NCBI RefSeq assembly: GCF_910596095.1
Contig: NC_056543.1
Coordinates: 19,669,542 to 19,733,541, forward strand
Length of the DNA: 64,000 bases
Direction: 5' to 3'
From: Thunnus maccoyii
Lineage: Eukaryota > Chordata > Actinopteri > Scombriformes > Scombridae
Every line of letters starts with the position of its first letter. The first letter of the stretch is position 1. A program made the translations under genes and the position numbers. Below the pieces are notes generated by a model. It saw only the letters and a list, made by a program, of their open reading frames with translations, was not told the origin of the DNA and did no database searches. This document shows, in pieces, positions 1,526 to 62,057 of this stretch.

Positions 1526-1733
1526 ATTGGTCACACTTGGTCTCATTAGCATGAGGAGCTGTATAAACCCCGCCACTGCAGAATTGTGAGCTGTGTTGAA
1601 GGCGAGGCAACAAGCGTATCTCTGACTGGCTGCGCGCAAGGAGCAAGTAACTTTCACTTTCAGCACAGTTCAGTTCATAAAAGCGGGAGCTGTATGGAGA
1701 GCTCTCACGCCCTGTCTCATCTGTTCAGCAGCA
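1526..1733 (+). promoter_or_regulatory. pcdh8: Likely pcdh8 promoter and 5' leader
   Basis: Just upstream of the pcdh8 start lie an inverted CCAAT (ATTGG, 1526-1530), a T-box-like half site TCACACTT (1531-1538), a TATAAA (1562-1567) and a second A/T box, CATAAAAG, near 1676-1683. The ATG follows at 1734. Paraxial protocadherin is a known target of T-box factors such as Tbx16 in zebrafish mesoderm, which makes the TCACACTT site worth noting. Its function here is an inference from position and sequence only, and the transcription start is not determined. Confidence 0.45.
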
Positions 1734-4700
1734 ATGAGGATGCTTACTGAGGGAAAGGTTACTACCAAGATGATACGAGGCAAATTTATAACTTATTGGC
1801 GCCGGTGGATTTTTATATTCTCAATCCATCATTTTTTATCTGCCTCACTGGCCAAATCCGAGGGAAATACTATAAGATACCAGACCAATGAGGAGGACGC
1901 ACCGGGTACAGTCATCGGAAACCTTGCCAAGGACATGTCCTTGAGTCTGTCTCACTCCTCCAAGACCAATTTCAGGATGATGAAACAATTCAATGATTCA
2001 TTCATCAGGGTAAGAGAAAGCGACGGGGAACTCACTGTCGCGGAACGGATTGACAGGGAGAGAATCTGCAGACACACTCCACAGTGTCTCATTACTTTTG
2101 ACGTGGTAAATTTCTCCAAAGATCGCTACAAATTGATTCACGTTGAGGTGGAAATAAAGGACATCAATGACAACTCCCCGGAGTTTCCAAACAAGGAATC
2201 TATAGTGGAGATCTCAGAGAATGCAGCACTGGGGTCCCGTCTTCCTTTAGACCCCGCTGTGGACGCTGATGTCGGGTCAAACTACATCCAAAGCTATCAA
2301 ATTTCTGTCAACAGTCATTTCACCATTGATGTGCTCCTGCGAGCGGATGGGGTTAAATATGCGGAATTGGTACTAATGAAAGGGCTAGACAGGGAGACTC
2401 AGTCATCATACACTGTGGAGCTGGTCGCCACAGACGGAGGCAACCCATACAGATCAGGGTCAACAAAGATAACTATAAGAGTGACTGACTTTAATGATAA
2501 TAGTCCTGTTTTTGACCAGAGTAGTTTCTCAGTCAGTTTGCCTGAGGACGCACCGGTTGGCACTGTTATACTGGACTTGAACGCAGTTGATGCTGATGAG
2601 GGTTTAAACGGGGAGGTCGTCTACGGGTTCGGAAAACAGGTTTCTCATGAGATCCGAGAACTTTTCCACGTGGATAATAAATCAGGTCGCCTGACTCTCA
2701 AGAGTCCGGTGGATTTTGAGGACAAAAGCACCTATGAGCTTGACGTGCAGGCGAATGATCTGGGACCCAACCCGACCCCCTCCGTGTGCAAAATCATAAT
2801 TCACGTCACAGACGTTAATGACAATGCCCCAGAAATCAGTATCACCCCGATGACCTCCATTTCGACTGGCATTGCATATATCAGTGAGGCGGCAGACAAG
2901 GACAGTCTGGTGGCGCTGATCAGCACCTTGGACAGAGACTCGGGTGTTAACAGCCAAGTTCACTGCACATTATACGGCCACGACCATTTCAAGCTCCGAC
3001 AGGCTTACGAGGACAGCTACATGATAGTTACAGCTGCAACCTTAGACAGGGAGAGGATTAGTGAGTATAACTTGACGGTCATGGCTGAGGATTTTGGGTC
3101 ACCTCCGCTGAGAAAGATCACTCAGTACACCATTAGACTCAGCGACGAGAATGACAACGCCCCTCACTTTACTAAAGCTGTGTATGAAGTTTCAGTGGTG
3201 GAAAACAACCCCCCGGGCGCGTATGTCACCACGGTCGAGGCCAGCGACGCGGATTTGGGCAACAATGGCAAAATTACTTACAGACTCGTGGACAGTGTCA
3301 TCATGGGGTCCCCAGTGAACACATTTGTGTCGCTTAACTCAGTGTCTGGCTCCATATATGCCCTAAGAAGTTTTAACTATGAAGTCATGAAACAGCTAGA
3401 TGTACACATACAAGCAAGTGATGGGGGGTCACCACAGCTGCAGAGCACTGCTGTCATCAGACTAAAAATAGTTGATCAGAATGACAACCAACCTTCTATA
3501 ATTGAGCCACCCCTTTACAAGGGATCTGCTGAGGTTTTCCTGCCCAAAGATGCACCTGCAGGTTATGTGGTAACCCAGATAAAGGCCACAGATGCTGATG
3601 AAGGCATAAATGCACAGTTGTCCTATAAAATTACAGAAGGGGGACACCTGGGTTTCTCTATCAACAAAGACACAGGGAAAGTGCATGTGAGCCGACAGCT
3701 GACTTATGATCTCGCAGACAATGTCAAAGTCATAGTATCAGTCAGTGACAATGGGTCCCCCGCGCTTTCCTCCACAGCCATTATACACTTCAGTTTTGTA
3801 GAAGGAACTCTACCCAGTATGCCTTCCTTGGCTGAAAATGGCAGCGAGGATCTCTTTGAATGGGATATGTCCATAGCCATAATCATTGTCCTGGCAGGGA
3901 GCTGCTCTCTCCTCCTGCTGGCTATCATTCTCATCACAACCATTTGCAGCCGCCAGAAAAAAGAGACAAAGGAGGGGGGGTATGATGAAAAAGAAGACAT
4001 ACCAAATGTGGAAAAAGTGGAAAGTGGTCATATTGATTCATTGATTGCCAACCACAAAGGCAAAGTGTTTGATGCCCACCCATTTCCAGAGAAATCTTCA
4101 GTGGCCAGCAGCAATGCAACAGAGGCAGCCTGTGAGGATGGCAGGCAGACAGCAGGCATCTTTGAGTCAAACAGCAGAGTGATGGAGGGTAAATTAAAGG
4201 TAAGTAATTCTATTTTAAGAGATAATTAAAGTTTGTCACATACTGATTTTGTTGTGACTCAAAATTTGTGTCAATGTGTTTCTGTCTTCGCAGGGCTATT
4301 CTACTTTACCAGGATATGGGAAAGAAACTGTCCGGCCGATAACAATATGGAAGGGTAACTCCTTCACAACAATCTCAGCAAGAGATCCTCATATCAGTGG
4401 CAAAGACAGTGGGAAAGGTGACAGTGACTTCAATGACAGTGATTCTGACATAAGTGGGGATGTGCACAAAAAAGACTCGCCACCAACAAACAGTGAGTGT
4501 CACAAAAACATAATAAAATAGAGATTGAGAAAAAAAAAGTCAGATAAGTGAGCGCAGGATTAAATTTCAAGTTGAACTCCATACAATAATGCGTTTCCTA
4601 AAGTATGATTTATATCTTAATCTAAACCACATATACCAAAAAGATTATACCCAGTTACAACAATATATTTTCTGACACACTGGACACATTATGATGGATC

Positions 4701-16237: not shown

Positions 16238-19111
16238 TTAACACAGTGAGGTGTTCTCTTTAACGGGAAGAGATGTAGAAGTCTGCTTGTGAGCTTTGAT
16301 GTTGCTGCTCTGCTCTGAGGCGTGATCCTGCGTTCTGGACTTCAAAACAGACTGCGCCTCATCATGGGTAACAACTTGATGAGGTAGACACCAACTGCAC
16401 AGACATGCCTGAAGGACCACACAAACAAAGACGTTTGGTTAGAGGACAAAACAAATTTCCAATCCACTTCACATGGAGAAAATTTCACTCTTGAAGGTTT
16501 ATGTTTATAGAGTAATAATGGTGTAATCTCAGTGGAATGTAGCCTTGTCTATGTTGTATGTCTTAGTGACCTACAGGAAAAGCTGTATTGCTTCAATACA
16601 GACTCGTTAATTAAAATAGGGAAAATGGAACGCAGCCCTGTTCAGTTTCCATGTAGAAAGACATCTCCTTAAAAACAAAGTTGTGGATTGTGTTTTAATT
16701 GGGGAAGGAATTCCAGGGCTATCTTGATTTCATAAAAATATATCTGTTGTAAAAAAAAAAACATTATCAAATAGAAAACTGAAAACAAGTTCTTCATTTT
16801 CTGTGGAGTACAAATACCTCTTTGAAATCAAAAGAAATCAAAAGCATGTTAAGACATGAGCAAGCAATACAATAAAGGCTTTTACATTTTCTTTCCTTGA
16901 AAATTGCCTTGAAGCCCTCCTTCTCGTAAAATTGCCAAGTGTTGGTTTTTCTCTGATGATGTTTTTCCAGACCATTTTCACTTATTATACCCTCGGGTCC
17001 TTGCTTACTCCAGTCTGCAGTCCATTTCGTAGACATGACTCCATATGTCCACGATGACACATGCGATAGCTCATCCAGCAAGGTTTTCACCCCTACCACA
17101 TCTGTCTAGAAATGAATAGTGGCATATATAGGAACAGCTGGGGGAAGACAATAAAACAGTATATCTCACCTTGAAACATCTCTTAAATCTTTTGCTGACT
17201 ATGTACAATGCAATAGGGTTGATGCACGAGTTGAGTGATGCCATATTCATGCCAAAATAGTCCAGGACAAGAAAGACACTAAAAAAGGAGGATAACCGTT
17301 AAGTATGTCACACAAAAGAGCACAAACCTGGCAATATACAACAAAAATACTGGATTCTTCAAGCTCACCTCAGTAGCTGACACCTATTAGGATCTTTCTG
17401 ATCATATACGGTTAATTTCAAGATTCTGCTGAGGTATAGTGGCAACCAACAGAGCGCAAACACAATCACCAGGCAGAAGACAGTTTTTGCAACTTCTCGC
17501 CTCTTAAAAAGAAAATATAGAACACATATTAAAGACCTAAAAATGGGAAATATGCGATTTGGAAATATGTGTCTAAAAGTAGAGGGTTAACCTGCTTGGT
17601 GTAGTCACTTAATGTTTTCTCGGTGTTCCTCAGCATTTTCCTGGTCATCAGTGTGTAGAAGACGGCAGTCCAAGCCAGCGGCATGCAAAAGTAGAAGCCA
17701 AAGAGCCACCAGTCCTTTAAGGATTTATAAAACTGTTGATTAAACATGACAGAAGCCCACAGTCAGTCAGTGCTGCAGATGACTTTGTGTTCAGTGGTTC
17801 CTATCAGCATTCTATGCATAAAACAATATTTGAGACACACAGACATCATTCACAAGATGACATTGTATAATAAAGTGTTGGGTTGTCTGTTGGATGAGAT
17901 TAGGACAAATGAAATTAGAGCTATTATGTGTTACATTTCCTGTCAGCAGTTTCTTACATTACACTGGGTATAAAAAGACGATCATAATGTCAATCACATG
18001 TTGATCTGTTTACTTTTTTTTGTTGCACTGGTTGGGAAATACCTGCATAAACCGCGTTGTTTGCATAGGATGAAGCAGGCATACTCTCAGATGCTTGTCT
18101 TTATAGTCCATTGTTATCATATCAAAGCCAACAACTTCAGGCACAGCCAGCATGATAGAAATAACCCATATCAAAGTTATTTCGATTGCTGTCCACACTG
18201 AAATCCCAATGCCTTTGATTCGTTTCCAGGATACTACAGCTCGGTACCTGCAAAATCAATGGAAAAATGTTATGACTTGGGGGACTTTTATCTGATGATA
18301 CATTTTTCCAGTTAAAGAACATTTCAAGGGCTCATGCTAAACAAATCTATCTGCTTGATGAAATGCATTAGCCAGCAAACTATATTTTCTTGTAGTGCAC
18401 GGGACAGTGCTGCTTATCTCCTTACCTGTCAACACTCAGAGCACATAAACTCAACACAGTAATTCCAACAGAGGTTTTCTGTATGAAGGGGACAAGCTTG
18501 CACAATACCAAACCGAATGGCCAATCTTCTGCCATGAGCTGCAAAGAAAACAGAAGCACATTTTCTGTAATAACAAACACAATCGATTTAAGGTAAGATT
18601 GAAGTTCTGAAATGGACAGAAAGAGCAGAGCAACAGGATAAGGTGCGACATTACTTTCTCATTGTAATTGCACACCACGAAGTGAATAACTCACCCTGTA
18701 TGTGTTGATTGGAATGTCTATCACAATGTGGATTAGATCCCCCAGAGCAAGACTAGCAATGAGAATGTTCGGCCCGCTTCTCATGCTTTTGTTTACATAT
18801 ATGATTTTCAGTAAGGCTGAGTTCCCCACTATTCCAACAACAAAAACAACAAAAGAGACTATAGTATTGATATATTTGAAGATGTCTCTGATTCCAGCTG
18901 ACTCTAAGCACATAGGAGGGTTTGGTGTTTTTGGTCCTGCTACTTGAGGTGGATGAATTGAGCTGTTGGATTTCTGTTTTCCCAGTACTAAAAGACCAGG
19001 GGACGCTGTTTCAGAGAGTTCAATTACAGAGGACGGTTCTGAATGCTGATCACTGGCCTCTCCGCTGATGAGAATATTTCCCAAACAAAGAACAAGAGCC
19101 GCAGTCCACAT
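16238..19111 (-). CDS. ednrb: Endothelin receptor type B (G-protein-coupled receptor)
   Basis: Seven-transmembrane receptor for endothelin peptides, coupling mainly to Gq and Gi; in fish, B-type receptors act in neural-crest pigment cells and vascular tissue. Coding exons, in gene order: 19111-18695, 18538-18426, 18247-18043, 17732-17592, 17502-17369, 17278-17170, 16408-16238; 429 residues (human EDNRB 442). Residues 1-20 look like a signal peptide; an NSS glycosylation site is at about 49; TM1 is about 81-103 and TM2 about 116-136. [14 protein letters not shown] and IDIPIN match EDNRB closely. The DRY triad is at 176-178, split by an intron. [15 protein letters not shown] is TM5, a cysteine-tryptophan-proline motif is in TM6, and NPIALY is in TM7. 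The last exon gives a cysteine-rich, probably palmitoylated tail (CLCSWCLP). Linkage to human 13q genes fits an EDNRB1-type gene, but which teleost duplicate (ednrba or ednrbb) is not settled. Confidence 0.93.
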
Positions 19112-19138
19112 TGTTGATGATTTCTTCAAAGGCGCTAA

Positions 19139-19471
19139 AATTGTTTTTGCCGGCACTGGACTGAAAATGAGAGTGAAAATAATTATCACAACATCTTAGC
19201 CTTGAGATTTACAGCAAAACATTTAGGTCAGGTAAAAGGTTTATTTAATTTACTGATCAAAAGGCAATAATAATAGGGCTAACAGCATTGATACAGCATG
19301 AAAAACAGAATTATGACAGCTTACCTTTAGATGTACATATGCAAACTCTGCATGAATTCAGTCTGTGTAATACCCACAAAATAGGCTTTATGTTTAACAC
19401 AAAGGCCTACTCTTTGCTGCTGCGCCTGATATAAATCTTGCAACCCAGCAGAGGGAAATCAGGGTTTTATA
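19139..19471 (-). promoter_or_regulatory. ednrb: Endothelin receptor 5' noncoding exon, first intron and TATA box
   Basis: A splice acceptor (TTTTCAG, exon edge at 19160) lies 49 bases before the receptor ATG, so an upstream noncoding exon is expected. A good donor (AAAG then GTAAGC) ends such an exon at 19325. A minus-strand TATAAAA at 19471-19465 would place the transcription start near 19435-19440. Together these give a 5' exon of about 110 bases and an intron of 164 bases. The model comes from splice and TATA consensus only. Confidence 0.5.
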
Positions 19472-19974: not shown

Positions 19975-22900
19975 ATGAGTCAGTCTCTATCCTACCAGAG
20001 AGATACTGCCTGTGCATCTCCTGAGAGTCCTAAACAAGGTGACTTGTTCTTCTCTCAACAGTTTATGACAACCTGCAGAGCCTGGAGGAGCATGAGACAT
20101 GTGAGGACCAGAAAGATCCCATTGTTAATATCATACCCGACAACTACTCCAGCTCTCTTTTGAACATTCAAATTTGTGTTCCGCTGGCTACAAATGACCT
20201 TGGGAACCATGTGCTGGCATGCTTCCACAAGAACAGCCGATTAAGAAAAGTGAGTTGGCTGAGTTGGATATGAGAAATTATGACAACTGTTTACAGCTAG
20301 GCTGTCAAGCTCAACATTATTGCAACTGTTTTTTTCTTCTCCATATAGGTCATTGGAGAGAACCAAGGTGCTTCAGTACAACGCCTGTAAAAAAAGAAGC
20401 TGTAAGGAACATTTTTAATTAACAGTAGCCTGACTGACAGATCTATAAACATAACAGTAATATTCATAATATAAGGAATTCACAGTGATTATCACTTACG
20501 TGCATTGTTACATTTTATTCTCCTGCAGTAGTTGTTACTATGTTTAAACCATATTTTGATTTGTGTCTGACACCAGTTGATGACATTGGGTCCTTGGTGT
20601 AGGCTGTTCTGATGGTCACACACTGACATCTTGCTTGTCAAGTTGGTTAAAGAAGTAGTTTAAAAGCTTGCTAGCGAAAAAAAAAAACTGTCAGGAATGT
20701 ACAATAAGTTATTCAACCAGTGATAGTGCTCCATCCAATTTATATTCACTAAAGCCACTATTACTTCACACAGGCGAAGTGAACAGTTTCATTTGAAAAT
20801 ATATGGTTGGGTTTATTGGCAATCACCCCTAAATAAAGGTGGTCTGTGAGTGTTATTCATTCTCAAAACACTTGAGTTATAACACTGGGAGAAAAAAAAA
20901 TGTTAAGGGGGACATATTATGCTTTTTGTGATTTATGTATAATGTTATGATGTTGGATATTTATGCTAAACATGGTCAGTACTCCAAAACTTGAGGTTAA
21001 TGTATGTAGAGATGCTCCCTGCAAGTCAAAAACCCAGGCTTCAACCTGCTCTGAATGCTTCCTTTGCAACGTTTTTTTCCACCTTGCCGACAAGCTGATG
21101 TCAGCTCGTTGCACACGTCCATAAACGTCCGTCCATTCTGTAGCCTTTGTTGCTATGTTGCTAAGGTTCTTCCATGTGTTATTTGCGTTGTCCATTCTAA
21201 TATTTCGGATTGTATTTCGGCTTGTATGGATGTATTTGAGAAGTTGACATTTTGAGTACAGAATGAGAAAAAGTCATGAAATCCTACTATTATAGTTTGT
21301 TTCATGGTTTGTTGAACGTCTCCTCCAGAGCCGGTGGAAGTCTCCCAAAGAACTGGCCAATCAGAACTGAGTAGGCTCATCTGGAGGGGACTCTTAAAGA
21401 GACAGGAGCTAAAACAGCCTGTTTCAGACAGAGGCTGAACTGAGGGCCTGTATAAAGGGCCAGTATAAGTTAAATAAGGAGTTTTTTTAACTGTAAACCA
21501 TGCAAAAATTTTCCAGCAGAGTCCCATATTAAAGATATAGACCTGTAAATGTGCAAAATATGTCCCCTTTAATGTTCCCACTTTTGTCCAACCTCAACAG
21601 GATAGATGTTAAAATTCTATCTGTTAACTGAACTAACCTGCCCTAATCAGCATTTCTTTTTCACTTAATTTGTTTGCTTATGTTTATCAATCAACAATCT
21701 TGCAATCTATCATTTCTAAACCCTGGAGAGGCCATCAGCTCATATTAGGGCTACAAGGAGGCGTTAAAGCTCCACTAATGAACATTTTTATATAACCAAT
21801 GAAACTGATTACCATGTGAAATAGAAACATTATGAATCACTTTTTTGTGCTGATTTGAATATTTCAGTTTTGTTCAAAGATTTGTAGTCACTGAAGTTCG
21901 CTGACTTTTTAGTAGGATAAGCGATTGCATCATCGTTCAAGCTGTTAGCTTTTCAGTTCAGTTGAGTACAAAACTAAGCGTATACAGCACTGCTTATAAG
22001 GTTTATAGCTCAGCAGCCATTTAAAACAGTTTATCACATCATGATGTTTCTGTGGCTTTGTTTGTGTTTTTTAAGCTTTTAATGAGGAAGTAAAGTACTG
22101 TGAATCCCAGCTGAGCTAACGGCGCTCACAGTCTCCAGTGAGGAGAGCTCTACCGCTAAAAGCTACCGTTTCAGTCTGTGACAGTGGGGATTCAGTAGGT
22201 TATAGTGAGTTCACTTTAAAGAGTCTATGTTAAAGTTTTGTTTGTACATTGACTGAACACCTCTAATATGAAATGGGTGTCTTGTAGTGAAACACAGGCA
22301 ATTATCACCCAACTCTGCGTGCCTCAACCTTAGCCTCTTAGCTTGTTAGCCACTTTTAGCTCAGCAGGCAGCTCCACCAAACATCTAGTCAAACATCTAC
22401 TGGCTTAAGACCAAGATATTTCTTTTAAGTAGTCAATTAGACCTAAAGCAGAGCTAGAACGAGAGTGAATATTGGTTTACATCCATCAGGTGACCACAAG
22501 AAGACTCCAAATTATTTGCTAAAGTTACTCTCAGTCTGTGCCTGCTGTTTGCTAACGAGTTAGACAAAACAGTTTTATAAGGTGAGATATGTGTATGTGC
22601 TTTCTAGCTTGCTGTGGAGTTCTTCCCCCGAGAGGCCCCAAAAAATCAATTAATGCACACAAAGTTGTTGTGGTAAAACACTGATGTAATCCTGTCTCTC
22701 TGTTTGTGTCCTGAACAGTCTGGTCTCTCCAGAGTTCATGGAGGTGCATGCGCTGGATGGGAGATTCATTACTTTGGTGAGCGCTCAGACCCAGACAGAT
22801 TGGGAGTGGGTGGAGCAGAGCCTCTCTTTCAGCTGTCAAGGTAAGCTATGTCATCAGTTTGGGTACGGAGGGGTCACCTGTTCCTGCCCCCTCATGCTTC

Positions 22901-25900
22901 GCATGACTTAGACATCTGTCAAATTCTTAATTATTTCTCTCTTGTGCAGTTCAAAAGGAAATTGAAGATCCCCAGTTGTTGCAGGCAGAAGTGGTGAGCA
23001 TTCTTCAGAGGTAGTCTGCTTGTGGCAAAAGTGTGTGTTAGATACAGTCAAGTCAAGACAGGCCAAAATTACTCATTTGTCTCAGGTGGCTTTACACTGT
23101 GAATTGTAAAGCTCTCTGGCACAAACTGGCGTAGATAATGTTATAGGCTATATATAGGTTTCACCTATAGTTTATGCATATGCAGCTTACATCAAAAAGT
23201 CTACACTAGTGTTGTTGTTTTTTTATTAACATGAGGAGACCGAGGATGAAAACATTCCAAAAGAGCACGTGGGTCTGCCACGTCTCATAGCATACAAGCC
23301 AGAACCAAAACAAGCTCTTCAAGTTGAGAAGGTACCTTTGACTTAGTCCAGTCTCTCTATATTGCACATAGTACCTGGAAATGACAGTGATGGCCTTTTT
23401 CATTTCCCCACAGTAATAGCAGTGTGTGGGGGATATAATATCAGAGGTGGAAAGGTGATTGTGAATCTGTTTTTGCTGCACTGTAGGTTCCAGAGGTTGA
23501 ATTGAAACACAATGTGCATCTTGCTCAGTGTGACTATTGCCAGCAACTCTGTCAGCCCTTCGTGCACAGTGAACTATGGGAAAATGAACCCAACTTTGAG
23601 AGGGTGAGTGTCGCTCACTTACCTTCAACAAAACATTGAAAATAAATTCATTAGAAATAACGACTGTTCACCTTACCCTAATGACAGAATCATCCCTATT
23701 TGTGGTAACAGAGTGGGAAAAAAATTGTAGGAGAAGAGTGCTGTAAGTAAAAAAAAGAAATGTGTAATGTTGAAATTTTCTTTTATTCAGCTCTTTTGTT
23801 GTGAGCAAGCTAGACAAATGAGAGAGCTTATTTTGGAAGAAGGGGGAAAATTGGCACAGAATGAGTCAAAAAGAAAGATTGATGTGGAGCCTCATGCACA
23901 CATCATAAGTGAGGAGGAGAGGGAAGCTGCTAAAGAGAAGGCAAGGGAGAGGTGAGTAATATGCATGCCCTGTCCTCTCTAAGAACAGCTTTTAAAAATG
24001 TACCTGCATTTAAATTTATACATTGGTGGAGAGGCTGCTGAAAACATATAAATAATGACTGTACTTTATTGCTTACACCGTATATTGATACTGATTGTAC
24101 TATATTGTATGCTATAAAAGAGCTCCATTTCTCTTACTGCAGCAAGAAGTATGAGGTGGCATCCAAATTTGTGCCTCAACATGCCCTTCAAGTGTTGTCT
24201 TTGTATTGTTCATTTTCCTACTGCTGCAGAAAATAACTTGGTCATCTTCTAATGTAGGCTGAGCCAGAGAAAACCAATGACAACCAACAATGACAACTTG
24301 AATAAAGACTTAAGTAAGTGTGCAACCTGGGTTCCTAGTCTTGACAAATTTGGACCAACAATGAAGATATTAAGCATGTAGTCTTTCCTGCTTCTCATTG
24401 ACAAAATATTAATAAAAGGATATTCTCCTTTGTCTGCTCAGGCCGAATTGAGATCAAGCATACATTCACCTACAGGCTGTCAAAAGAGATTCCCTACATC
24501 AGTGATGAGGCTCACATCCCTCCAATCAATCTCAAAAATACTACCGGCATGTTTACACTTCAAGAAGAGACAGATAGTGAGCCAAAGGTGTGTTCATGCA
24601 TTCTTAATGACTCTAAACTAGAATAAGCATTTTATTATTTGTGTATTTACCAAAAATGTAATCAATAACTTGACTATCCTGTGTCACAGCTGAAGGAAGT
24701 TACTAAGAAGTTCTATGAAAACAGGACTTGTTTTCTCACCTTGTGTCCAGATAGAACGGGTAATGTTTTGTATCCTTTGAAGCAGCGCACAAAGCAGAAG
24801 ATCAAATACTTAATGAGAGGATACACATTTGTTCCCTTTGATGAAAGGTTTGCACAGTGTTAATGATCCTTAATACACAAAGTTATCCTTCTGGGAAAAT
24901 AGCCATTATAATATCCTCTGCCGAAGCCGCTGACTTCACTTATATAATCCTGGAGGACAAGGACGTGGCGCCCAGCATCAAAGGCATTTTCACAAATAAA
25001 GGCCATGCCACATGCTACCATCCCAATGGAATAATATGGTACTTATTACTCCATGGCAGCTTATTATTTCTAATAATTTAAACCAATTGCTTAGCTAAAT
25101 AGGGGCTTAAGGTAATTAGTGAATTAGAAATTAAATATAAACGTCATTACATGTCGAACCTTGATCCAAACAGTATATTTTATCATAGAAACCAAACAGT
25201 TAGGATCCCTTTGGTTTCCTAAATGATGATGAAATGATGTTTTGACCAGATAGAGATTTTTGATTAACCTTCTGGCTCTCAGGCTACAGGTCACAATGTG
25301 TGTATTGCTAATCTCTTTGGTGTGTCCTAAGGGTGAATCTGACCCCTATTGGAGGTCTGTGCTTCAGTGAGGCAGGAGCTTTGAGGAGGCGTTGGAGTTG
25401 GCTTGATTTCTACCCGCATGTCCGTAAGCTTCCTTTCAAGCCTCTCACCTTTGCCCTGGGTCCATACATCAGTGTGCGCATACATTCACAAGAACATGTG
25501 TACATCACGTTTGCACATCATCAAAACAGCGTGCGCTTCAATGTCGGGTCAAAGCTTAAGGTATAGTATGTATGTAGTATGAATACACTAAGAATTGTGC
25601 ATTTTTGTTTATTTTTGTTTAATACATGAAATATATAGGGAAACCAGCATACATGTTAATTTGTATGCAGCACATGACAACATTTATTAATGATCTGCAA
25701 TGTATACACAGAAATATATAATGAATAAGAAAACGATCATGTTATTTTTCTTGTAATGCAGCTCATTTGTCCAGAGAGCCATGAAAAGAAGCCGGAGCAA
25801 GACGTTGTGGAGAGATATATCCGAACGAAGAGCTCAGAGATTTACTCTCTGCTCGGCCAGATGCAGACCTGCATGACCCACCACTCTGCAAATCTGCACA

Positions 25901-25917
25901 ATGTTAAGCCACATTAG
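19975..25917 (+). CDS. erich6b: ERICH6B-like FAM194-domain protein, first tandem copy
   Basis: Member of the ERICH6/ERICH6B (FAM194) family, whose molecular role is not established. Exons: 19975-20038, 20062-20249, 20349-20386, 22719-22840, 22950-22993, 23236-23331, 23487-23603, 23791-23951, 24258-24313, 24442-24587, 24690-24769, 24883-25038, 25332-25560, 25762-25917; 550 residues, frame kept throughout. A TQTDW motif is encoded at 22789-22803. A possible metal site follows (CDYC in exon 7, FCCE at the start of exon 8), then a charged helical stretch. The C-terminal FAM194 domain spans exons 11-13 (YPSGKIAIII, YIILEDK, GHATCYHPNGIIW, WSWLD, SQEHVYITF). The intron after exon 11 is U12-type. 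Exon 1 is uncertain: the best donor (20039) leaves only 23 intron bases and a weaker one (20012) leaves 50. ERICH6B rather than ERICH6 is chosen from linkage to cog3, as in human 13q14. Confidence 0.82.
20903..21572. mobile_element. piggyBac-type non-autonomous element (MITE) in erich6b intron 3
   Basis: TTAA occurs at both edges (20903-20906 and 21569-21572), the target-site duplication typical of piggyBac elements. Inside, the termini are inverted repeats: GGGGGACATATTATGC on the left and AGGGGACATATTTTGC as the reverse complement of the right end, 14 of 16 matching. The 662-base interior has no transposase frame. A related but partial sequence appears in the cog3 gene near 36180-36475. Confidence 0.7.
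24770..24882 (+). other. erich6b: U12-type (minor spliceosome) intron in first erich6b copy
   Basis: The donor reads GTATCCTTT (24770-24778), the U12-type 5' splice consensus in its GT-AG form. TCCTTAAT at 24867-24874 closely matches the U12 branch-site consensus and ends only 8 bases before the acceptor dinucleotide AG at 24881-24882. There is no polypyrimidine tract, also typical of U12 introns. Reading phase across the intron (phase 2, TT plus T giving Phe before YPSGK) supports it. Confidence 0.8.
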
Positions 25918-28240
25918 TTTCATTGCCTAAATGCAGCGGCTAAGCAGACAAATGGAAAAAGAGATGTCACCCAAAAAGATAAAGGACTAAGTAAAGTGAG
26001 AGAAAAACAGAACTGGCAAAACTAATATAATTTATGGTGGTGTTACAGTTGACTGCCTTGTATTGTTTTAAACAGCTTGAGTATGTGATGCTTACAGTCA
26101 ATCCAATTACATTCAGACTACAAAGGGCTGAGCTTTATAGAAAAAGATTTGTAAAAGATTGGGTCAATTAGTGTGAGATGCAAACAGTTTTGTAAACATT
26201 AGAAATCAGTTCACAGTTAAAATATCCTGCCAAGGTCGGATTTGAGGAGTTATCTGGCAGGACAAAGTAAAAAATCTTAGGGAAAAATCCAAGATTGATT
26301 GCATATTGGTCGTATTTAAGAAGATCATCAGGAACAAATGAATCTTCCTGTCATACCAGTGGGATCTTTTAGCATGTATTTGAGGCTAATTGGAACGTTT
26401 TCACAAAAGAGAAAAGCGACAACTTGCATGATGAGTAAAAAATGTGAAATCCAGCTAAATATTTAGCCTTTTGTAATGGCACAGTTAATGACATAATTAA
26501 TGTCACTGAACTGACTCAGTAAGGCCAGTTCCACATCAATATCTATCTAATAATACTGTACTTGCGAACATTAGCTAACATTAGTCACCATGAGCTCTTA
26601 GTCATATCAGACCTAGTAAGACAGCAATAAAACCCCTAAAGCATTGTGCTGAGCAAACTTATATTGTTTATGAATTCCAGCTAATCATTTGTGACAGCAA
26701 GAATGTGGTCTCTCTTCCTTCAAAAGTCTAATTTAACATTTAAGGAGACCAAAGTAATTGTTCCAACACCTGACTTTTAATTGCAGCTGGTCTTGGTTTT
26801 CCCAACACAAGAAAAACACAAGCTATAAAATACATGTCTTCTACTTAACTGGAAAACTAAAAAGTCAAGCAACAACAGCTAATAAACACTAAATGATGAA
26901 TACCCAGATTTGAACAGAAAACCCTCTCACACATTTCTTTGCATTCCATTCCACCTTTTATCTACTAGAAACATCACATGCCTGTGTTATCACAATTGAA
27001 ACACCATTTCACGCATTCTAACTAATTCAGGGCTATTTCGCATTGAAATTCTGCTACTGACAAACACCAAACAGTTATAAATGCTCAGCTGCCACTAAAA
27101 TCCCTTCTCTGCACCTATCACTGTAACCAACTGTTCATCCAGACTTGTGTCCCCTTATGTCCCCATATCAAACCTGATACTGTCCTTGCATTGCAACACA
27201 GGTTCCTTTGGGTCCACTGAGTAAACATTTGCAAATGCTGAATTGCATGAGTTGGAGACTAATCTATAATTTTTGTACAGTAAAGCTTACCATTATATGG
27301 ACTTAGTAGAGTTTAAAGGAAATTTTAATGGCTGCAGTGCTCCTCCAGTCTATTGCAACTTCTTTTGCACTCCCCAAATTTTGCAGGCATACATTTTATT
27401 AAAAATAATTACCATTCAATCAGTTTCTGTGAGGCCTGATAACCTTTTTTTTCCAAGAGTCTCAAGCGTTTGGGGCTTTTTTAACATGACAAAAGCACAG
27501 GTAATCCACAGCACAATAAAACCCATGAATGCTCTTGAAATAAACTCTATTTGTGGCATACCTTATCAATAAAAGACAATGACATCATACAGTACATTAT
27601 GAAGGCTTTTCAGCCACCATAAACATGCTGCGGCAAATCAGTCTGATCGTCGTTTCAATGCATTTCCAATTTACTTATAGCATGCAACATTTTTATGTTT
27701 TATTTACATTATGTTATTACTATATGGCCTAGTGGAAGACGGTTAATTGGTGTTATTCCCAGATCACCAAATTATTGCGTTGCTATGGCCACTGAATGTT
27801 GGTACATGTGTGATTTACACTTAAGATTTTTATAGCAATTGCAGATGGTGAAAACAAGCCACAGAGAGATAAATATTTTCTCTCCTTATCTTTCTCTCAC
27901 TTCCTCTCAAAGTCAAGTCAAGTCACTTGCTTTACTGGCATGAGCACGATTAAGTACAGGTAGTGCAAGCTTTGCAATTTAAGTATAATAAGTCTGAATC
28001 TTTTCAGAAAAGCCAATGGCTTTCACATTTCTACCTTGTATATGATAAAATAAAAATTGGAAACAGATTTATTTAAAAGAAAATATATAATAAGACGAGA
28101 TGTAGTTTAACAATGTATTCCAGTGAATTGGATATCCAAATGTAATGGTAATGGTAAGAACTATAGGGGAAGAGAGATGGAGGCAGGTTTTTTGAAAGAC
28201 CTCAGTGCAATTTTTTATCCTTTCTCTCCCATTTTGTGTC
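25918..28240. other. Spacer between the two erich6b copies
   Basis: About 2.3 kb with no supportable gene. It contains the 3' UTR of the first copy (AATAAA at 26626-26631 is one candidate signal, but distant), a tandem AAGTC tract (27909-27926) followed by sequence resembling a dispersed fish repeat, and an imperfect RFX-like site GTTGCTATGGCCAC (27779-27792). Confidence 0.45.
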
Positions 28241-28273
28241 TACCATGGAAACAGTTGCATGGTTGCCATGGTA
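28241..28273 (+). promoter_or_regulatory. erich6b: RFX-like inverted repeat upstream of the second erich6b copy
   Basis: Two 12-base arms, TACCATGGAAAC and GTTGCCATGGTA, form an inverted repeat with 11 of 12 positions paired, separated by 9 bases that include another GTTGC. Each arm resembles half of an RFX X-box (consensus GTNRCC-N-RGYAAC). The site lies about 105-135 bases before the proposed start codon. Regulation by RFX factors, hence ciliated-cell or testis expression, is an inference. Confidence 0.4.
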
Positions 28274-28376
28274 CACATGCTGTTTTTATTTGGCCATTCT
28301 GAATCTGATTCAAAATGTTTGCCTTTATTGTGGTTTCTCTATTTTACAACAAGTTAAGGGTTTCATAGAATTGAAG

Positions 28377-31300
28377 ATGCAAACACTTGACACGGCAGGC
28401 AAATCAGTAGAGATGGATTCATCAGCAAGTCTTGGCCTTGAAACCATACAGAGGTTAGCAATCAATATTACAAACTGACTTTAGTCACAGCATCATGAAG
28501 AATAGATACTTATCCATGCAGCTAATGGAGATCCAGTTTTAACCATTTCGGTACCTGGCTTGCAAGGGATATTGTCTAACCTCACAGGATCAAAAAAGAA
28601 AAGTTGTTCATGTATCCATAGTTGGCCTTCTTTTGATAACCATGTAAGAAATATTTTTTTGTTTCAGTTTTAACACAAACTTCAAATTTGAATCAGAACC
28701 TCTCTGATACAGTCTCAAAAAATGGACCTTATGTTTCCAATAGATGGTAGTTTTTGAAGGGTGGGTTTATTGGATTTCATTGTACATTGTAAACTAGGAG
28801 CTTGAGTTATTGCATCCACTCCCTGTACTTGTTTGGGCTCATTAAGTTCATAATAAAGAACTAATTTCAGCGTAAGTTCACGTGAATATCTGACGATCCA
28901 TGCATATGACGGGAGAGTCGTCACCAGAGTCAGCGTTGGTACCCAGACCGACTGGAGACATAAGGAAGAGTGCAGTCAGGGTACAGTTTCTCAATTGTTC
29001 ATGCTAAGTATGAAACTCTAACATTGGCTGGTATTATTAATATTATTATTATTATCATCAATAATTCTTTTTGCATTTGCAGATTATAAATACCCAAACC
29101 AAGAAACATCAAAAGCTCCTCAGAAGAATTTGGTGTTGACATCTGAGCAGATGAGTGTGTTAAGTGTGGGTGAATACCATCAAGATGGTTTACAACAACA
29201 AACTCAGAATGAGGTACTGTATTCTTGTAGAACCCCCCCCCCTGTCTCTCTCAACTGCAGCTGTGATATCCTTGATAAAGTAAAATCTTTTACTAGGATT
29301 GAACTTGACTGTATAATTTTTATGTAATCAAATTACCATTTAAATGCACTTTGGTGAGTGGTGAATATGAAATTACCACATGAGGTCTTTTTGTGTTTTA
29401 CAGATAATTTTACTATGGCCAAATTAATACTGAATATAAGCTTTTGCAGTCTCTCCTTGTCACAGTGTAAGTTTCATCTTGTGAAAGACAGTATAACATG
29501 ATATCCAGAGACACTGAATTTTTTTTTTTTTTTTGTGGTTTTGATTTATTCATGAAGCACAAGTTAAAGACCTCAAAGAATTTATTAAATTATGAAGTGT
29601 CTTTGTTTTTTCTCCTCAGAGCATTCCTAAAAGCATGAAGTCTGAGTTGGAGATATCCCCAGATAATGAAGTGTTGGATTCACTCATCATGGAAACTCCC
29701 CTAGCCTGCCAAGGAGAAACTGAGGAGTCTTTAACTAATCTGGACAAGGTATGAGGGGGTGTAGGGGGGTGGGGGAGGGGTACTTTTAAACTGCTCCTTT
29801 CCCTCTCTTCTAGCATAAATATGAATTAATTTATGAAAGATGCAATTAGTCTGTTTGTCTTGTATCAAAACTTGCCTGTCACTTCTGCTGCTTGTTTTAA
29901 ATTATGCCAGACTGTCAACATGGTTTTTGAAAACCTCATTAACTGGAATATTTGGATATATTTGTGACAGAGGGCCTTCTTGAGAGAGAAAATATGATTA
30001 AAATAAAATCAGTAAGTGTCTATTCCGACTATGTTTTCAGATCCCGGCCTCAAGTGGATCAGACTCATCAGAGGAGTCGTTGCAGACTGTGTTGAACACT
30101 TGCTGTGAGTACTGCCGGCAGCTGAAGGAACCCCCTGTGACCAGTGATCAGTTAGCCAACAGTGTTGACCCAAAAGAGGTGAGAGAGGGAGCTCACATGA
30201 ATCCTTGCAGTTAATATAGTCGGTAGTCGGCTCTTTTTTGTCCTTTTTTAAAGAACGATTAGACAAGTTAACAAAGTCAAGTCAAGTCAAATTTATTTAT
30301 ATAGCACATAGAAAGACCAAAGGTACACAACAGACATGATAAATAAATAAATTACAAGACAGATGAAAGACATACAACAACTACCAGAAATTGTAAGTTC
30401 AGTATGTTGTTTTGTTCACATGCACAGATGTGTGTGTGAGTGATTGTGCACTATCACAAAAATGAAAAGGAAAAACTAAATAAGAATTAATAAATAAGGA
30501 GATAAAGGAAACAATTAATGAAACAATAAATAAAAATGCAAGAATACACAATTAAGTGCTGAGATGATGGAGATAGATAGATAACAAACAGTAAATGATA
30601 ATAATAATATACACATACCAGACAAAAATTACAAAAATTCATACAAATGTGTGGTAGTAATAGTGGTGGTAACAACAACAATCCGTATCATTTTTGACTT
30701 AATTATTAGTACATCTGCATGTATATTAATCAAGTAGAGGAAATGGAGATTATGAAGATCCATCAATAGTGTGAGACAGTCTAGGGAGCAAAGGGAGCTA
30801 GGTAGTGTCCCATAATATTATGGGAGGGGTCATTAGCTTCTCCAGCAGCAGTTTATTGAATAGTCAGAATACAATGTCATCTGCATATTAAAAGATTTTG
30901 TGTCATCTGCATATAAAACTGTTTTTTTGCATTCCTGTAATTGTTGCTTGAACAAATAGCAGCAATTAAAATTGCAAAATATAATGTGGAAAGTGGACAT
31001 CCTTGTCATCCTTGTTTAAGTGAGAAACATTGTTAAGTATGACCAATTTGTTATAACAGGAGCGAGTTTTGGTCCATTGAATGAAAATGAAAAACTCTCC
31101 AAAACCAAATTTCAAGGTTTTTTCAGTGTGATGCAGTGATGCTCTTTAGGCTCTTTCTTTGAGATATGTTGCTTAGACTGAATAACTGGAGCATTTTACT
31201 TGATGATTGTCTGCCTTTTATGAAGCCTGTTTGGTCTGAGTGGTCTGAGTGGATTAGTAGGCTTATAACCGAGTAAATTCTTCTGGCTAATGCTTTGCTG

Positions 31301-33729
31301 ATTATTTTTAGATCACAATCAATTAAGCTTATGGGTCTGGAAGTGAGAGTGGGGTCATTATTGGGTTGAGCAAAACCGAAATGAGTGTGTGTGAACAATT
31401 TCTTGATGATTGTATTTCACTGACCATTCCGGTAAATAAGGGAGGAAATGAAATTAGTTGCCAAAATTGTTTGAAAGATTCCACACAGCATCTGTCTAAA
31501 CTTTGTTATTTGGCATAGAGAAGAGTGCTTTAAGTGGTCTAATGGGTTGGCTTATTCTATGGCTAGTTTTGATAGTCAAACACTGTCAAGGAATGAGTGG
31601 ATGTCCAAGGTATGTGATGCATTATCCGAATGATAGTGTTTGGTAAACATCATGGAGGGTTCTGTTTATGTCGTCTGAGTTGTACAATAAATTTCCTTCT
31701 CAGTCTTTAATCGTTGTGATTAATGAGTTTTCTTTGTTATGCTTTAACTGATTGGCAAGAAATTCATGTTTTGTCATTCTTTTCAAAGTATGTCACCCTT
31801 TGTATGAGAAACTGAGTCCTTTAATGTACAATATTTAAATTTTATATTTTAAATTTTCTGCATCTCATAAAATAGAAAACTGACAGTGAATCCAAAACAT
31901 ACATTATGGTTCTATTCATTAATATGAATGAATAATAATTGAACAATTGTATGATAATTATATCAATGGACATTGATTCTGGATTTTGTAGCATTTTTAC
32001 ATTCATACTCGTCTTTTTCTCTTCTTTGTGTCAGTTTTTCTGCTGTGAGGATGCTTGGGAGTTCTCAGACATTTGGCTGAAGGGTGCGGCAGTTAGCACT
32101 AAAGAAACCGTGACTGATTGGGATCCAGTGATGGAGAGAGATCAAAGGTCAGAATCGCTCTTGTCCATTATTAACTTCCACCATTAGATGGTTTTCAAAT
32201 TCAATTATATGCCATTGAACCTCTGATGCTACATTTTCCACAATACACTGCAGGCTGAAATGTTTGGAATTTCAAAGGAGCTCATACCATCAGACCCCTA
32301 AAGCAGGTTACACACTGAGACATCACAGTTTATATTAACCTATGCATCTATCACGGATCTCCTGCAGGTTAAACTGACTTATCTTTCCCCTTTGTTCATC
32401 GGTGTCATGACACCTTTAATTACATTGCTGGACATAAACAAGAGGAATCTGCCACCCTACACTATCGACTGTCTGATGATGGTGGGACTGCTAAGGACGA
32501 AATTTCATTCCCTGAAATAGAAATCATGGATTCTGAAAACACAGTTTCTCTCAATGGAGAACATGCTGCACTAAAGGTATTGTCATGTGTTGAAATTCAA
32601 GGCTCACTATAGATGAGAGTATAGAAGCCTACATTCATTAAGAAATCTGTTTGGTTCAACAGAGGAACACACCGCTTGTCAAACACTACAACAGTGGTCA
32701 AACATTTATCATGATTTTTCCTGATGGAACTGGGCAGGTATGGTATCCTTTGAGGTGAATTGAACTGGACTTTTATTGACACGATATCACATATTTCATT
32801 TTTCAATGTTCACCTTAATCATATTTAAAAGCTACCCATCAGGAAGGCTTGCTATTCTTGTGTCTGCTGCACAATCAGCTGACTGGTACTATGTGGTCCT
32901 GGAAGACAAACACCTTCACCCTCGCATTCAGGCAGTTTTCATGACAGGGGGTCAGGGTACCTGTTATCACAAAAATGGCTGTATTTGGTATGATTGATTG
33001 ACATAATATTGGCAAATTATTCTGTGATTAAAATCTATTTTATTATCGCCTGTTGTCTGTAGAAACATTTTAAGTTTAATTGACAACAGACAGGAATGAC
33101 AATCTGTCTGACAATAAAACCACTGAGCGGCTCACTATTCTCAAGCTGCTTCTCTTCATTAGGTTGAACCTGACTCCACGGGGAGGCACCTACTGCACTG
33201 ACACAGGTGCTCTGAAGAAGAATTGGAGCTGGCTGGACAATACTCATCATGTTCATGCTCCGCCCTGCCAGCCCCTCTGCCTGACACTGAGCCCTAATCT
33301 CAACATCCGCATCCAGTCCCAGGAGCACATCTACCTCACTTTCACTTCAGGCAGATGCAGTGTACGGTTTAATATAGGGGCAAAATTAAAAGTACGTAGC
33401 TTGCAGTGTTAGTATTCATTTGTGGCAATAGCAGAAATACAATAGATGCAAAGAGCAGATGAAATAATTGATTTTACTTTTCTATATCCTTTCATTCGCA
33501 GCTGCATCAAGGTAAAGGTCTAACACTGCCAGGGTCTGACATGCTTCAGAGGTATCTGCAGCAGAAGAGTGCAGAGATCAATGTCCTGCTCCAGAACATC
33601 CAGTCCCTCATCACCTATCAAAAGACTGTAGGTCAACAGAAGGTCAAGCCCCAGCAAAGCCTCATCTCACAGATGGAAAGACGGCGGCTGCCAATGAAGC
33701 AGCAACGGTCTGCCAAAAAGACCCCCTAA
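28377..33729 (+). CDS. erich6b: ERICH6B-like FAM194-domain protein, second tandem copy
   Basis: Paralogue of the gene just upstream, same orientation. Exons: 28377-28453, 28871-28980, 29083-29213, 29620-29748, 30041-30178, 32035-32147, 32254-32306, 32443-32576, 32663-32742, 32832-32987, 33163-33391, 33502-33729; 525 residues with consistent phases. Exon 2 carries the TQTDW motif (28941-28955) aligned with copy 1. The Cys pair (CEYC) and FFCCE at the start of exon 6 repeat the pattern of copy 1. The three FAM194-domain exons have exactly the same lengths as in copy 1 (80, 156, 229 bases), and a hand alignment gives about 67 identities in roughly 130 residues. Copy 2 lacks counterparts of copy 1 exons 2-3 but has an extra serine/acid-rich exon (29620-29748). 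The acceptor at 32443 is weak: no pyrimidine tract is near it, and an earlier AG would lead into TAA. The C-terminal tail is longer and basic (RRRLPMKQQ). A LINE remnant lies in intron 5. Confidence 0.82.
30275..30312. repeat. AAGTC tandem tract with TTTATTTATATAGCAC repeat tail
   Basis: Three AAGTC units run into ATTTATTTATATAGCAC, a tail very common in dispersed fish repeats. A similar AAGTC tract occurs at 27909-27926. It lies in intron 5 of the second erich6b copy, next to a LINE remnant. Confidence 0.5.
30840..31400 (-). mobile_element. Degenerate LINE (L1-like) reverse-transcriptase fragment
   Basis: On the minus strand the stretch 31398-31123 encodes SRPISLIDCDLKIISKALARR and HSDQTGFIKGRQ, matching the conserved first blocks of L1-type reverse transcriptases. 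Further along, 31010-30985 still gives GCPLS, and about 30920-30868 gives VLYADD, the catalytic box, which here appears twice through a roughly 30-base local duplication. Frameshifts and stops separate the blocks, so this is a dead fragment. Flanks out to about 30750 and 31780 may also be LINE-derived. Confidence 0.7.
32743..32831 (+). other. erich6b: U12-type (minor spliceosome) intron in second erich6b copy
   Basis: Donor GTATCCTTT (32743-32751) and branch-site-like ACCTTAAT (32812-32819), ending 11 bases before the acceptor AG (32830-32831). The intron is 89 bases and sits at the same codon position and phase as in the first copy (before YPSGR), so it predates the duplication. Confidence 0.8.
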
Positions 33730-37900: not shown

Positions 37901-40900
37901 AATTAGAGTGCCCTCTAGTGCTACAAATTTAACATGACCTTGAATGAGATAAGGGTGATAGGATGAGCGAATCTGCCCTGTGAGCCATCGGTTAATGTAC
38001 ATTATGGTGTTGGATTACACTGTAATTTCCACATTAATTGTTGCCACCGGTGCATGCGATAGGCACAAGTTGCTTAATGAGCATGAGAATGTAATGACTG
38101 GCTTTATGGAGCTGAACATCAATGTTCCCTCCACCTTTAATTATCTTACCCCGAGTTTTCTTCAGGTCTAGTGAGATTTCCTTGATGGCAAAGTCGGTGT
38201 GAAATGGAGCAATCTGTTCACGCATTATTAGCAGGTGCTTGATCAGGAAAAGTTGCCCATCTATTTGCGTCTACAGAAAAAATGATAGCACACTGTTAAA
38301 ATCCACACTGCAGGCTGCCAACACAAAAGGGCATCTGCTGACTATCCGAGCTACAGAGAACATAAAAAGCGCAGGCTTAGAGGCGATAAGGGAATATGTC
38401 TAATTAATAACTCCTGATTAACCATAGCTGGAAAGGGACACATTACTGTGACAAAAAAAAGGAAGCTGAAACCATTTATCGCTCAGCTAGTGACTAAAAC
38501 ATTGGAAAAAGACATCATCAACACGGGGAGGAAACACGTCCTCTGAGATTGATGTTGCTGCATTAATTTGAAGCGCGAGGTTGAAACGGGCCAGTTACCG
38601 CTGATATTGACAGCAAATTTGAAGGTGTGAGAATAAATAAAGGATGGTCTGCTGAACGCTTTGTAGAGCATAATAAAGCACCCATTAAAATAAACTTTTA
38701 AATGACATCCCAGCTGCTTTCGTTAAACAATCTGTTGCCTGAAGGAATTTAAATGAAAGAGAACACATTTTAATTAAAAAAGGGAACTGATCTTGTTTAC
38801 TATGTCAAACAAAAGGCATATTTCCAGTTATTTTTATAATAATAAAAGAGAAAAGTTCAGTAAAAATACAAAAACCATGCTCTACTCTTAACCATGTGTG
38901 CCGACCTTGTTTTTAAGGATGATATCAGAGGCTTTAAGAAGCGACTGGATGCAGGCAGATAAGGCTTCTTGAGATAAACCCTGGAAGACTGCTCTCTGGA
39001 GAAGACACAATAAGCAACACAGGAAACATAAATACAAAAGTATGTGAAAACGATGCATCAGTATATTAGCAACTAATAGGAACTGAGGACTCACATCTAT
39101 ACATCTGTAAAGCTTGGACAGACAAACCAGCGTTCGTCTGACAGTAGGGTACCACATGCCGTGCAGATCAGCAGGAGAGATGGAGGTCTGTAGGCGTGAT
39201 GCTTCTACATTCCCTGTATTTATCGTAAAAATGGGTAAAGAGCCATCAGGCAAATGACAATAACACCGAAAGTTGTAAAAAAGAAAAAAAGCAAGTATCA
39301 AAAATCCGGAGACACGTACCAGCATTACTATTTCTTCTGCCATCAGGATCCTCAAGCTGAACATCAGAAAACGTGGATTCTTGTGACATCTGCTTCATTT
39401 GCTCTTCCTTCAAGCTCTGAGCAATTCTCTATTGATGTCAAGAACAACAAAAACAGTCAAGAGCTAGAAGATATAAAGTGACACATAATGGAAAGACTCT
39501 CATATTTGCTCTAATGGGAGGTCTCCAGGTTCTTGAAGGTTAAATTAACATAAAAGAAAAATCAACTCGCAAAACAAGTCTGAAGACAGAAAGAATGACA
39601 ATAATATACAAAGAAATATCAGAGCACACACTTGCTCTTGACATTGAGAAAATAGTGTACAAGCAACACATTTAAAGGGCTCTTGAACATTAGTTAAGAC
39701 TCAAAGGCATATTTAACTACAAGTGCAGACATTCACAAGCCCAAAGTCCTTCTGCAACCTTGAAGTTACATTATTCAACTTAATACATAAAGACTTGCTT
39801 CACTTTGGATAACACCAGAGCACTTTTTGAGATTCCTTTTGCCACATTAATAAGACGAACAACAATTCTAGATACAATCGATTTCAAGTGATTGCATTTA
39901 GTGCTGAGATGATACGTTTTTGATAAATTATTATGTCATTTGTCAAGCAAAAAAGCCAAACATTCAGTTTCTGGCTTCTCCAATGTGAGGATTTGCTCCT
40001 ATTGTCAGAAATTACAAGCATTTTGAAAACATTACCTTTGGCTCTGGGAACATGTGATGGGCATTTTTCATTATTTTTGACATTTTACATGTTGTGTAAA
40101 AGCTGGCTGAGTAGAAGCCAACTGGTCACAATTGGTGGATGTTTTCTTTCTGAGGATATTAAAACTATTTACCTCCATCATCTCCAGTTTTTCAGGATAA
40201 GCCAGATCCCCTGGAGCTGGGTTGTAGCCTGTAATATCAGTCTGGATGTAAATGTGAGTCCTGTAGACCAGCCTCTCCTGAACATCCTCCAGCATCTGCT
40301 TCACTACTGCATCAAAGGCCCCCAACTGAGAAGCTACATAAAGGCACACACACACACACACACAGGTCAGTTTACAGTTCGACCAATTCTAAAATCACAA
40401 CAACCTTTCCTTTCTAGTCCATTTTGATGTGAACAGACACAAATCCTTTCGAGTCTGAGGTATATGCTTGATGTAGAGTGATGTTGGATACGGTACGGTC
40501 ATGATGTGAATATCAGAACTGGTGAATGAGAACCAAAAAGCAGGGTGCTGTAGCATGAAAAGACTTCATGTTTTAAAGAAAAAATATTATATTCCTTTTG
40601 TTTTTCCAAAAGTACATGCTTTCTCTGGAGTTTCTACTCTCAGATACCAACCCACTAAATTGGACTAGCACCCCTTTGTAATTCTGGATGAGCAACGTTA
40701 AATCTGGAGGACCTGAATCCAATGAAATTAATCAGTGAACCTCTACAGTTTTTTTTGTTAGCCAAAAATTAAATGAGTGCTCAAGACCTGTGGTTACAAT
40801 CAGACGAAACATTTCTCACTGATAAAAATAAGCCCTGATGATGCAAGTGGATATTTGTGAGTGCCTTATTTTTCATTTATTTGCAGCTCATTCATTTTTG

Positions 40901-50989: not shown

Positions 50990-62057
<11,068 letters not shown>

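Follow-up and report, generated by a model that had tools for sequence, protein, structure and literature searches.

A probable U12-type intron at a shared site in two tandem ERICH6-like genes of Thunnus maccoyii

We analyzed a 64,000-nucleotide stretch of the Thunnus maccoyii genome (G000:C11:19669542-19733541, hereafter the window; the genome comprises 782 Mb in 54 contigs) that carries two ERICH6-like genes of the FAM194 family, here called copies A and B. Intron 8 of both genes is best read as a GT-AG intron of the minor-spliceosome (U12) type, ancestral at the same codon and in phase 2, most likely including the ancestor of a third family member on another large contig. We assign this reading a probability of about 0.93. 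An earlier note on this DNA had proposed that the two introns are U12-type and that the intron predates the gene duplication; both points are well supported. The U12 type is backed by the donor and branch-site scores, by the reading frame and by what the two deeply diverged copies have conserved; the early origin is extended by a third family gene with an intron at this site. The anatomy, frame, scores and conservation described below are direct observations.

Gene models and the signals of intron 8

Exon models of the two copies were predicted by matching splice sites and reading frames. The copies lie in tandem on the forward strand, each with 11 homologous coding exons and ten introns in models whose 5' first exon or exons were not located, and intron phase is equal at all ten matching positions. 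The models and the elements of intron 8 are as follows.

22719..25917, forward strand: gene copy A (FAM194/ERICH6-like), frame-consistent splice model, 453 residues, stop TAG
22719-22840, 22950-22993, 23236-23331, 23487-23603, 23791-23951, 24258-24313, 24442-24587, 24690-24769, 24883-25038, 25332-25560, 25762-25917, forward strand: exons of copy A
28871..33729, forward strand: gene copy B (FAM194/ERICH6-like), splice model, 499 residues, stop TAA
28871-28980, 29083-29213, 29620-29748, 30041-30178, 32035-32147, 32254-32306, 32443-32576, 32663-32742, 32832-32987, 33163-33391, 33502-33729, forward strand: exons of copy B
24770..24882, forward strand: intron 8 of copy A, GT-AG, predicted U12-type, 113 nucleotides, phase 2
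32743..32831, forward strand: intron 8 of copy B, GT-AG, predicted U12-type, 89 nucleotides, phase 2
24770..24780, forward strand: U12-type 5' splice site GTATCCTTTGA of copy A, 16.05 bits as a U12 donor and -3.5 bits as a U2 donor
32743..32753, forward strand: U12-type 5' splice site GTATCCTTTGA of copy B, 16.05 bits as a U12 donor and 2.1 bits as a U2 donor
24866..24874, forward strand: branch-site-like ATCCTTAAT of copy A, 9.0 bits, second A 9 nucleotides from the last intron base
32811..32819, forward strand: branch-site-like CACCTTAAT of copy B, 7.1 bits, second A 13 nucleotides from the last intron base
24883..25038, forward strand: exon 9 of copy A, opening T/TAT CCT TCT GGG (YPSG)

Both products matched the FAM194 domain (PF14977) far above the Pfam cut-off of 27 bits (copy A, E value 3.1e-58 and 196.9 bits; copy B, 8.2e-58 and 195.5 bits), which places them in that family. 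The name erich6b, as used in the earlier note, is plausible for the window genes; which copy would correspond to erich6 and which to erich6b we leave unassigned. An open reading frame with a COG3_C domain lies near the two copies (38891-39394, reverse strand) and fits the neighborhood of human ERICH6B, which we take to adjoin COG3.

The sequences and coordinates of the two introns given in the earlier note proved correct, including a CCTTAAT near the end of each, as did their common phase, which is phase 2: intron 8 splits the codon directly ahead of YPSG in both copies, and the reading frame is regained across each junction. The flanking exons are equal in length between copies (80 nucleotides for exon 8 and 156 for exon 9). 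Both introns start with GTATCCTTT (at 24770 and 32743), which agrees with the U12 donor consensus RTATCCTTT at 9/9 positions; this consensus and that of the branch site, TTCCTTAAY, are general knowledge. Scoring with U12 matrices, which the earlier note had suggested as a check, gave both donors the maximum of 16.05 bits, compared to 2.74 or less for the remaining 18 introns of the two copies. As U2 donors they are the two lowest among the 20 introns, the 2.1 bits of copy B lying barely below the next introns (2.37 and 2.4). Toward the 3' ends, CCTTAAT occupies 24868-24874 in copy A and 32813-32819 in copy B, in the contexts TCCTTAAT and ACCTTAAT; both sites resemble the branch consensus, and their distance to the acceptor is short, as is characteristic of U12-type introns.

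Age of the intron and chance occurrence of its motifs

Copies A and B are deeply diverged. Identical residues make up 163 of the 427 aligned (33% over the gapped BLASTP alignment), or 92/196 when the count is limited to the FAM194 domain and everything C-terminal to it, and fourfold-degenerate sites at conserved residues are saturated (21/68 identical). The leading run of identical bases nevertheless extends over 11 positions in intron 8, compared to 2-5 in the other nine intron pairs, and in whole-intron alignments intron 8 reached a z-score of 5.8, compared to -0.07 to 2.9 for eight other pairs (intron 4 was left out because of its length). The middle of intron 8 has no clear conservation, with 33 of 300 shuffles scoring equally well. 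Since duplication, selection thus appears to have held the signals of intron 8 rather than the whole intron, given the 11-base run and the outlying alignment but unconserved middle. Identity at positions +7 to +11 was also measured, but because it is 5/5 for intron pair 7 as well as for intron 8, we relied on the leading run and the donor scores instead.

Exons 9-10 of copy B were used as a protein query against the genome, and 11 matches were listed. Four of these fall in the window genes; two, separated by 432 bases, are on contig C12 (E values 9.3e-5 and 0.0022); the remaining five are weaker, with E values from 0.5 to 7. The C12 matches belong to a third FAM194 gene, which, together with its intron at the same site, is new in this analysis.

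L030:1259-2692 (G000:C12, around 14864488-14865150): third FAM194 gene, exons 8-11, uninterrupted reading frame, PF14977 E value 1.3e-61, 207.9 bits

This gene shares 53/153 residues with copy A and 51/153 with copy B. Ahead of YPSG it has a 158-nucleotide intron in phase 2, at the same place as intron 8, that starts GTATCCACTC (GTATCC) and is preceded, as in copy A, by TTT at -3 to -1. Because the third gene shares both position and phase, the intron site is most likely older than at least two duplications in the FAM194 family, which extends the earlier claim of an origin before the duplication of A and B, itself borne out by 11 identical donor bases between copies with saturated fourfold sites. 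The U12 signals of the third gene look eroded: its donor GTATCCACT agrees with RTATCCTTT at 7/9 positions (7.3 bits as U12, -3.5 bits as U2). A U2-like donor of 8.7 bits lies 49 nucleotides inside the intron; paired with the usual acceptor it would, by arithmetic, change the reading frame. Introns 9 and 10 of this gene look U2-type. Downstream, on the opposite strand, are kinesin-motor open reading frames (L035), and upstream are short-repeat open frames (ASGEVGA..., ALEAPG...; L034:6234-6521 and L033:427-801).

It is very improbable that both intron 8s are ordinary U2-type introns that share the GTATCCTTT start through recent duplication or chance. The 9-mer is common genome-wide, with 2692 + 2677 (5369) sites, fewer than the 3087 + 3098 (6185) of its reversed control, and U2 donors do vary. 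Against this, the divergence given above makes the duplication old, the copy A intron is a very poor U2 donor, and GTATCC recurs at the same site in the third gene. An origin of the intron by duplication of the YPS codons was also considered, since the first bases of the intron and of exon 9 look alike, and was rejected: 7, 6 and 5 of the first 12 bases are identical in the three genes, compared to 2-6 in the other 20 introns, which is not clearly beyond chance.

We also asked how far chance accounts for the motifs themselves. The window contains four copies of RTATCCTTT, where 1.37 are expected (4/100 shuffles reach four), and six of YCCTTAAY, where 8.9 are expected, so neither motif alone is evidence. 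Two occurrences of ATATCCTTT were discarded as intron starts, one at 24415 on the reverse strand, within intron 6 of copy A, and one at 33484 on the forward strand, in the pyrimidine stretch preceding exon 11 of copy B. Scanning the window on both strands for a donor, a branch site and an AG at about 60-200 bases returned exactly two matches, the two intron 8s with the ends that the frame requires, compared to a mean of 0.28 in 60 shuffled windows, 2 of which reached two matches; its branch cut-off of 7 bits was picked with both introns in view, just under the 7.1 bits of copy B. A genome-wide composite pattern, with gap lengths fitted to both introns, gave 14 rows at 13 places (the two introns included) compared to 10 for the reversed control, and is therefore near chance by itself. 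In a control sample of eight loci from the genome-wide 9-mer scan, one had a branch-like site and AG within ~1.5 kb downstream, with no gene evident to the eye. The non-chance element is that the two matches sit at homologous exon junctions required by the reading frame.

Possible competing splice sites and the case for the minor spliceosome

Nine donor-acceptor pairs in copy A and 12 in copy B were translated, and in each gene only the U12 junction yields the FAM194 domain with no residue lost or added. This result, together with the lengths that exons 8 and 9 share between the copies, speaks strongly against a wrong exon model in which the region is spliced elsewhere or not at all. We consider such an error most unlikely, even though the models are predictions, the reading frame runs on through 91 of the 113 nucleotides of intron 8 in copy A (stop at 24861), and the C-terminus also stays in frame with 3/8 alternative pairs in copy A (two delete YPSG and one leaves a 35-nucleotide intron) and 3/11 in copy B. 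The U2-like donors near the U12 donors are the following.

24760..24765, forward strand: possible U2-type donor CGG/GTAATG in exon 8 of copy A, 5.6 bits, 10 nucleotides upstream of the U12 donor
32738..32743, forward strand: possible competing U2-type donor CAG/GTATGG in copy B, 9.0 bits, 5 nucleotides upstream of the U12 donor
32755..32760, forward strand: possible competing U2-type donor GAG/GTGAAT in copy B, 7.7 bits, 12 nucleotides downstream of the U12 donor

Copy A has just two U2-like sites above 2 bits near intron 8 (24760 and 24848). The first shifts the frame with the usual acceptor; paired with an AG at 24902 or 24926 it is in frame, at a cost of 10 or 18 residues including YPSG, and these pairs were rejected. 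The second, AAG/GTTTGC, was rejected as well, since with the same acceptor it leaves an intron of 35 nucleotides, which is too short. In copy B, donor 32738 shifts the frame and gives a truncated product with 4/4 acceptors tested, whereas donor 32755 with the same acceptor is in frame and adds four residues, for a 503-residue product with GQVWYPLSYPSG. The four added residues would repeat 'YP'.

Copy B might accordingly be a twintron, or be converting to the U2 type, if the major spliceosome used donor 32755 or 32738 in part or all of its transcripts and copy A stayed U12-type. Both donors score inside the range of those taken as U2, the product of 32755 is intact in frame, and vertebrate twintrons are known, with 18 in human genes (PMC3564746). 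We nonetheless regard this scenario as unlikely. Copy B keeps a perfect U12 donor and CCTTAAT although intron sequence is otherwise largely randomized, the upstream donor breaks the frame with every acceptor tried, and no U2-like donor above 2 bits in copy A both preserves the frame with the usual acceptor and leaves an intron of more than 35 nucleotides. A broader idea, likewise unlikely and speculative, is that the three genes hold one ancestral minor intron in three states: intact in copy A, where no U2 donor competes in frame for the usual acceptor; with usable U2 donors on either side in copy B; and with eroded U12 signals in the third gene. If so, copy B would be twintron-like, with a four-residue in-frame isoform switch set by which spliceosome acts, and the FAM194 family would offer a natural series for following the conversion of minor to major introns.

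Several observations weigh against the U12 reading of intron 8. The scoring matrices, for U12 and U2 alike, were set up from general knowledge of the literature and are not the published ones. The branch sites differ from TTCCTTAAC at two positions in copy A and three in copy B, and introns A1, A2 and A7, which have no U12 donor, also score 6.5-6.9 bits for a branch site. The 9 nucleotides of copy A fall slightly short of the optimum branch distance of 11-13 nucleotides (PMC6717393). At position -1, copy B has G, which is reported as disfavored in phase 2 U12 introns; the T of copy A at this position instead speaks for the U12 reading, being a reported bias of U12 introns (both from PMC7367187). 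The earlier note had also named the lack of a polypyrimidine tract as a hallmark, and this does not set the two introns apart: 11/20 and 13/20 bases before the acceptors are pyrimidines, inside the span of 9-18 of the other 18 introns. Donor 24760 outscores 9/18 of the donors taken as U2, and two U2-like donors flank the U12 donor of copy B. The best branch-like site of the third gene, ATCCTTATC, reaches 4.8 bits and retains the first branch A but not the second. The unconserved middle of the intron and the near-chance composite count belong on the same side.

With the U12 reading, U11/U12 would jointly recognize the donor GTATCCTTT and CCTTAAT as the branch site, after which U4atac/U6atac/U5 would remove intron 8, joining exon 8 (TGNV in one copy, TGQV in the other) to exon 9 (F/C-YPSG) within the FAM194 domain. 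This order of events is established for the minor spliceosome. A retained intron 8 would stop translation at 24861 in copy A and 32756 in copy B, losing most of the domain. Both the spliceosome that acts here and the truncation on retention in vivo we infer from the letters of the DNA. For copy A there is good reason to expect that expression depends on the minor spliceosome, since its U2-like alternatives change the frame, remove YPSG or leave an intron of 35 nucleotides; for copy B this is less certain, because of the in-frame U2-like donor 12 bases downstream. The obscure ERICH6/FAM194 family would then be added to the genes that failure of the minor spliceosome is likely to disable.

Relation to known minor introns and other features of the window

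The ERICH6-like case adds an instance to a known kind of U12 intron; features of U12 introns were compared against PMC3584512 and PMC6717393. The two introns resemble the vertebrate GT-AG U12 introns of RNF121 and UFD1 (PMC7367187) in their GTATC(C/T)TTT donor, a branch site near the 3' end and phase 2, and the phase 2 intron of rat Rnf121 has near-identical signals (GTATCCTTTG...TGATCCTTAACA; Table 1 of that paper). As in genes of the RNF121/UFD1 type, each ERICH6-like copy would have a single minor intron among U2-type ones. They differ in that FAM194/ERICH6 is not named in the parts of PMC7367187 considered and that the present introns are known from sequence.

Minor introns are enriched in gene families such as MAPKK, Nav/Cav channels and E2F (PMC6865273), and the FAM194 genes resemble these in keeping an intron at one site across paralogs, so that it is older than the duplication. 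Human ERICH6 is listed as testis-specific (PMC7436996), unlike the essential genes of cycling cells stressed in PMC6865273. Copy B resembles the U12/U2 twintrons of PMC3564746 in that U2-like donors flank its U12 donor; it differs in that copy A is without the same U2 sites, the family is not in Table 1 of that paper, and copy B is read from its DNA alone. U12 intron type is highly conserved among vertebrates, with 156/180 intron clusters conserved in all lineages compared (PMC2831892), 612 zebrafish genes have U12 introns (PMC9501576), and minor splicing has been linked to ciliary genes (PMC13216214).

The main texts of PMC13216214, PMC9501576, PMC6717393 and PMC6865273, so far as covered, do not contain ERICH6 (nor, in PMC6865273, FAM194). 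Judged by title and the start of the abstract, none of the open-access papers listed for ERICH6/FAM194 ties the family to minor splicing; supplements and U12 databases, which were outside this search, may already list the case. A search for a solved structure by sequence, with copy B as the only query, listed a single match that looks like chance (E value 0.71). No relatives were confirmed among pattern matches in viral contigs and genome contigs (0/44 and 0/91), and an Rfam scan of the window gave no match at the gathering score.

Elsewhere in the window we noted three further open reading frames.

18662-19195, reverse strand: open reading frame with a partial G-protein-coupled receptor match (Srsx narrowly exceeds the Pfam cut-off, 7tm_1 does not reach it)
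1626-4226, forward strand: open frame of 867 residues with five cadherin stretches, protocadherin-like
61377-62105, reverse strand: open reading frame with RING and B-box zinc finger, TRIM-like

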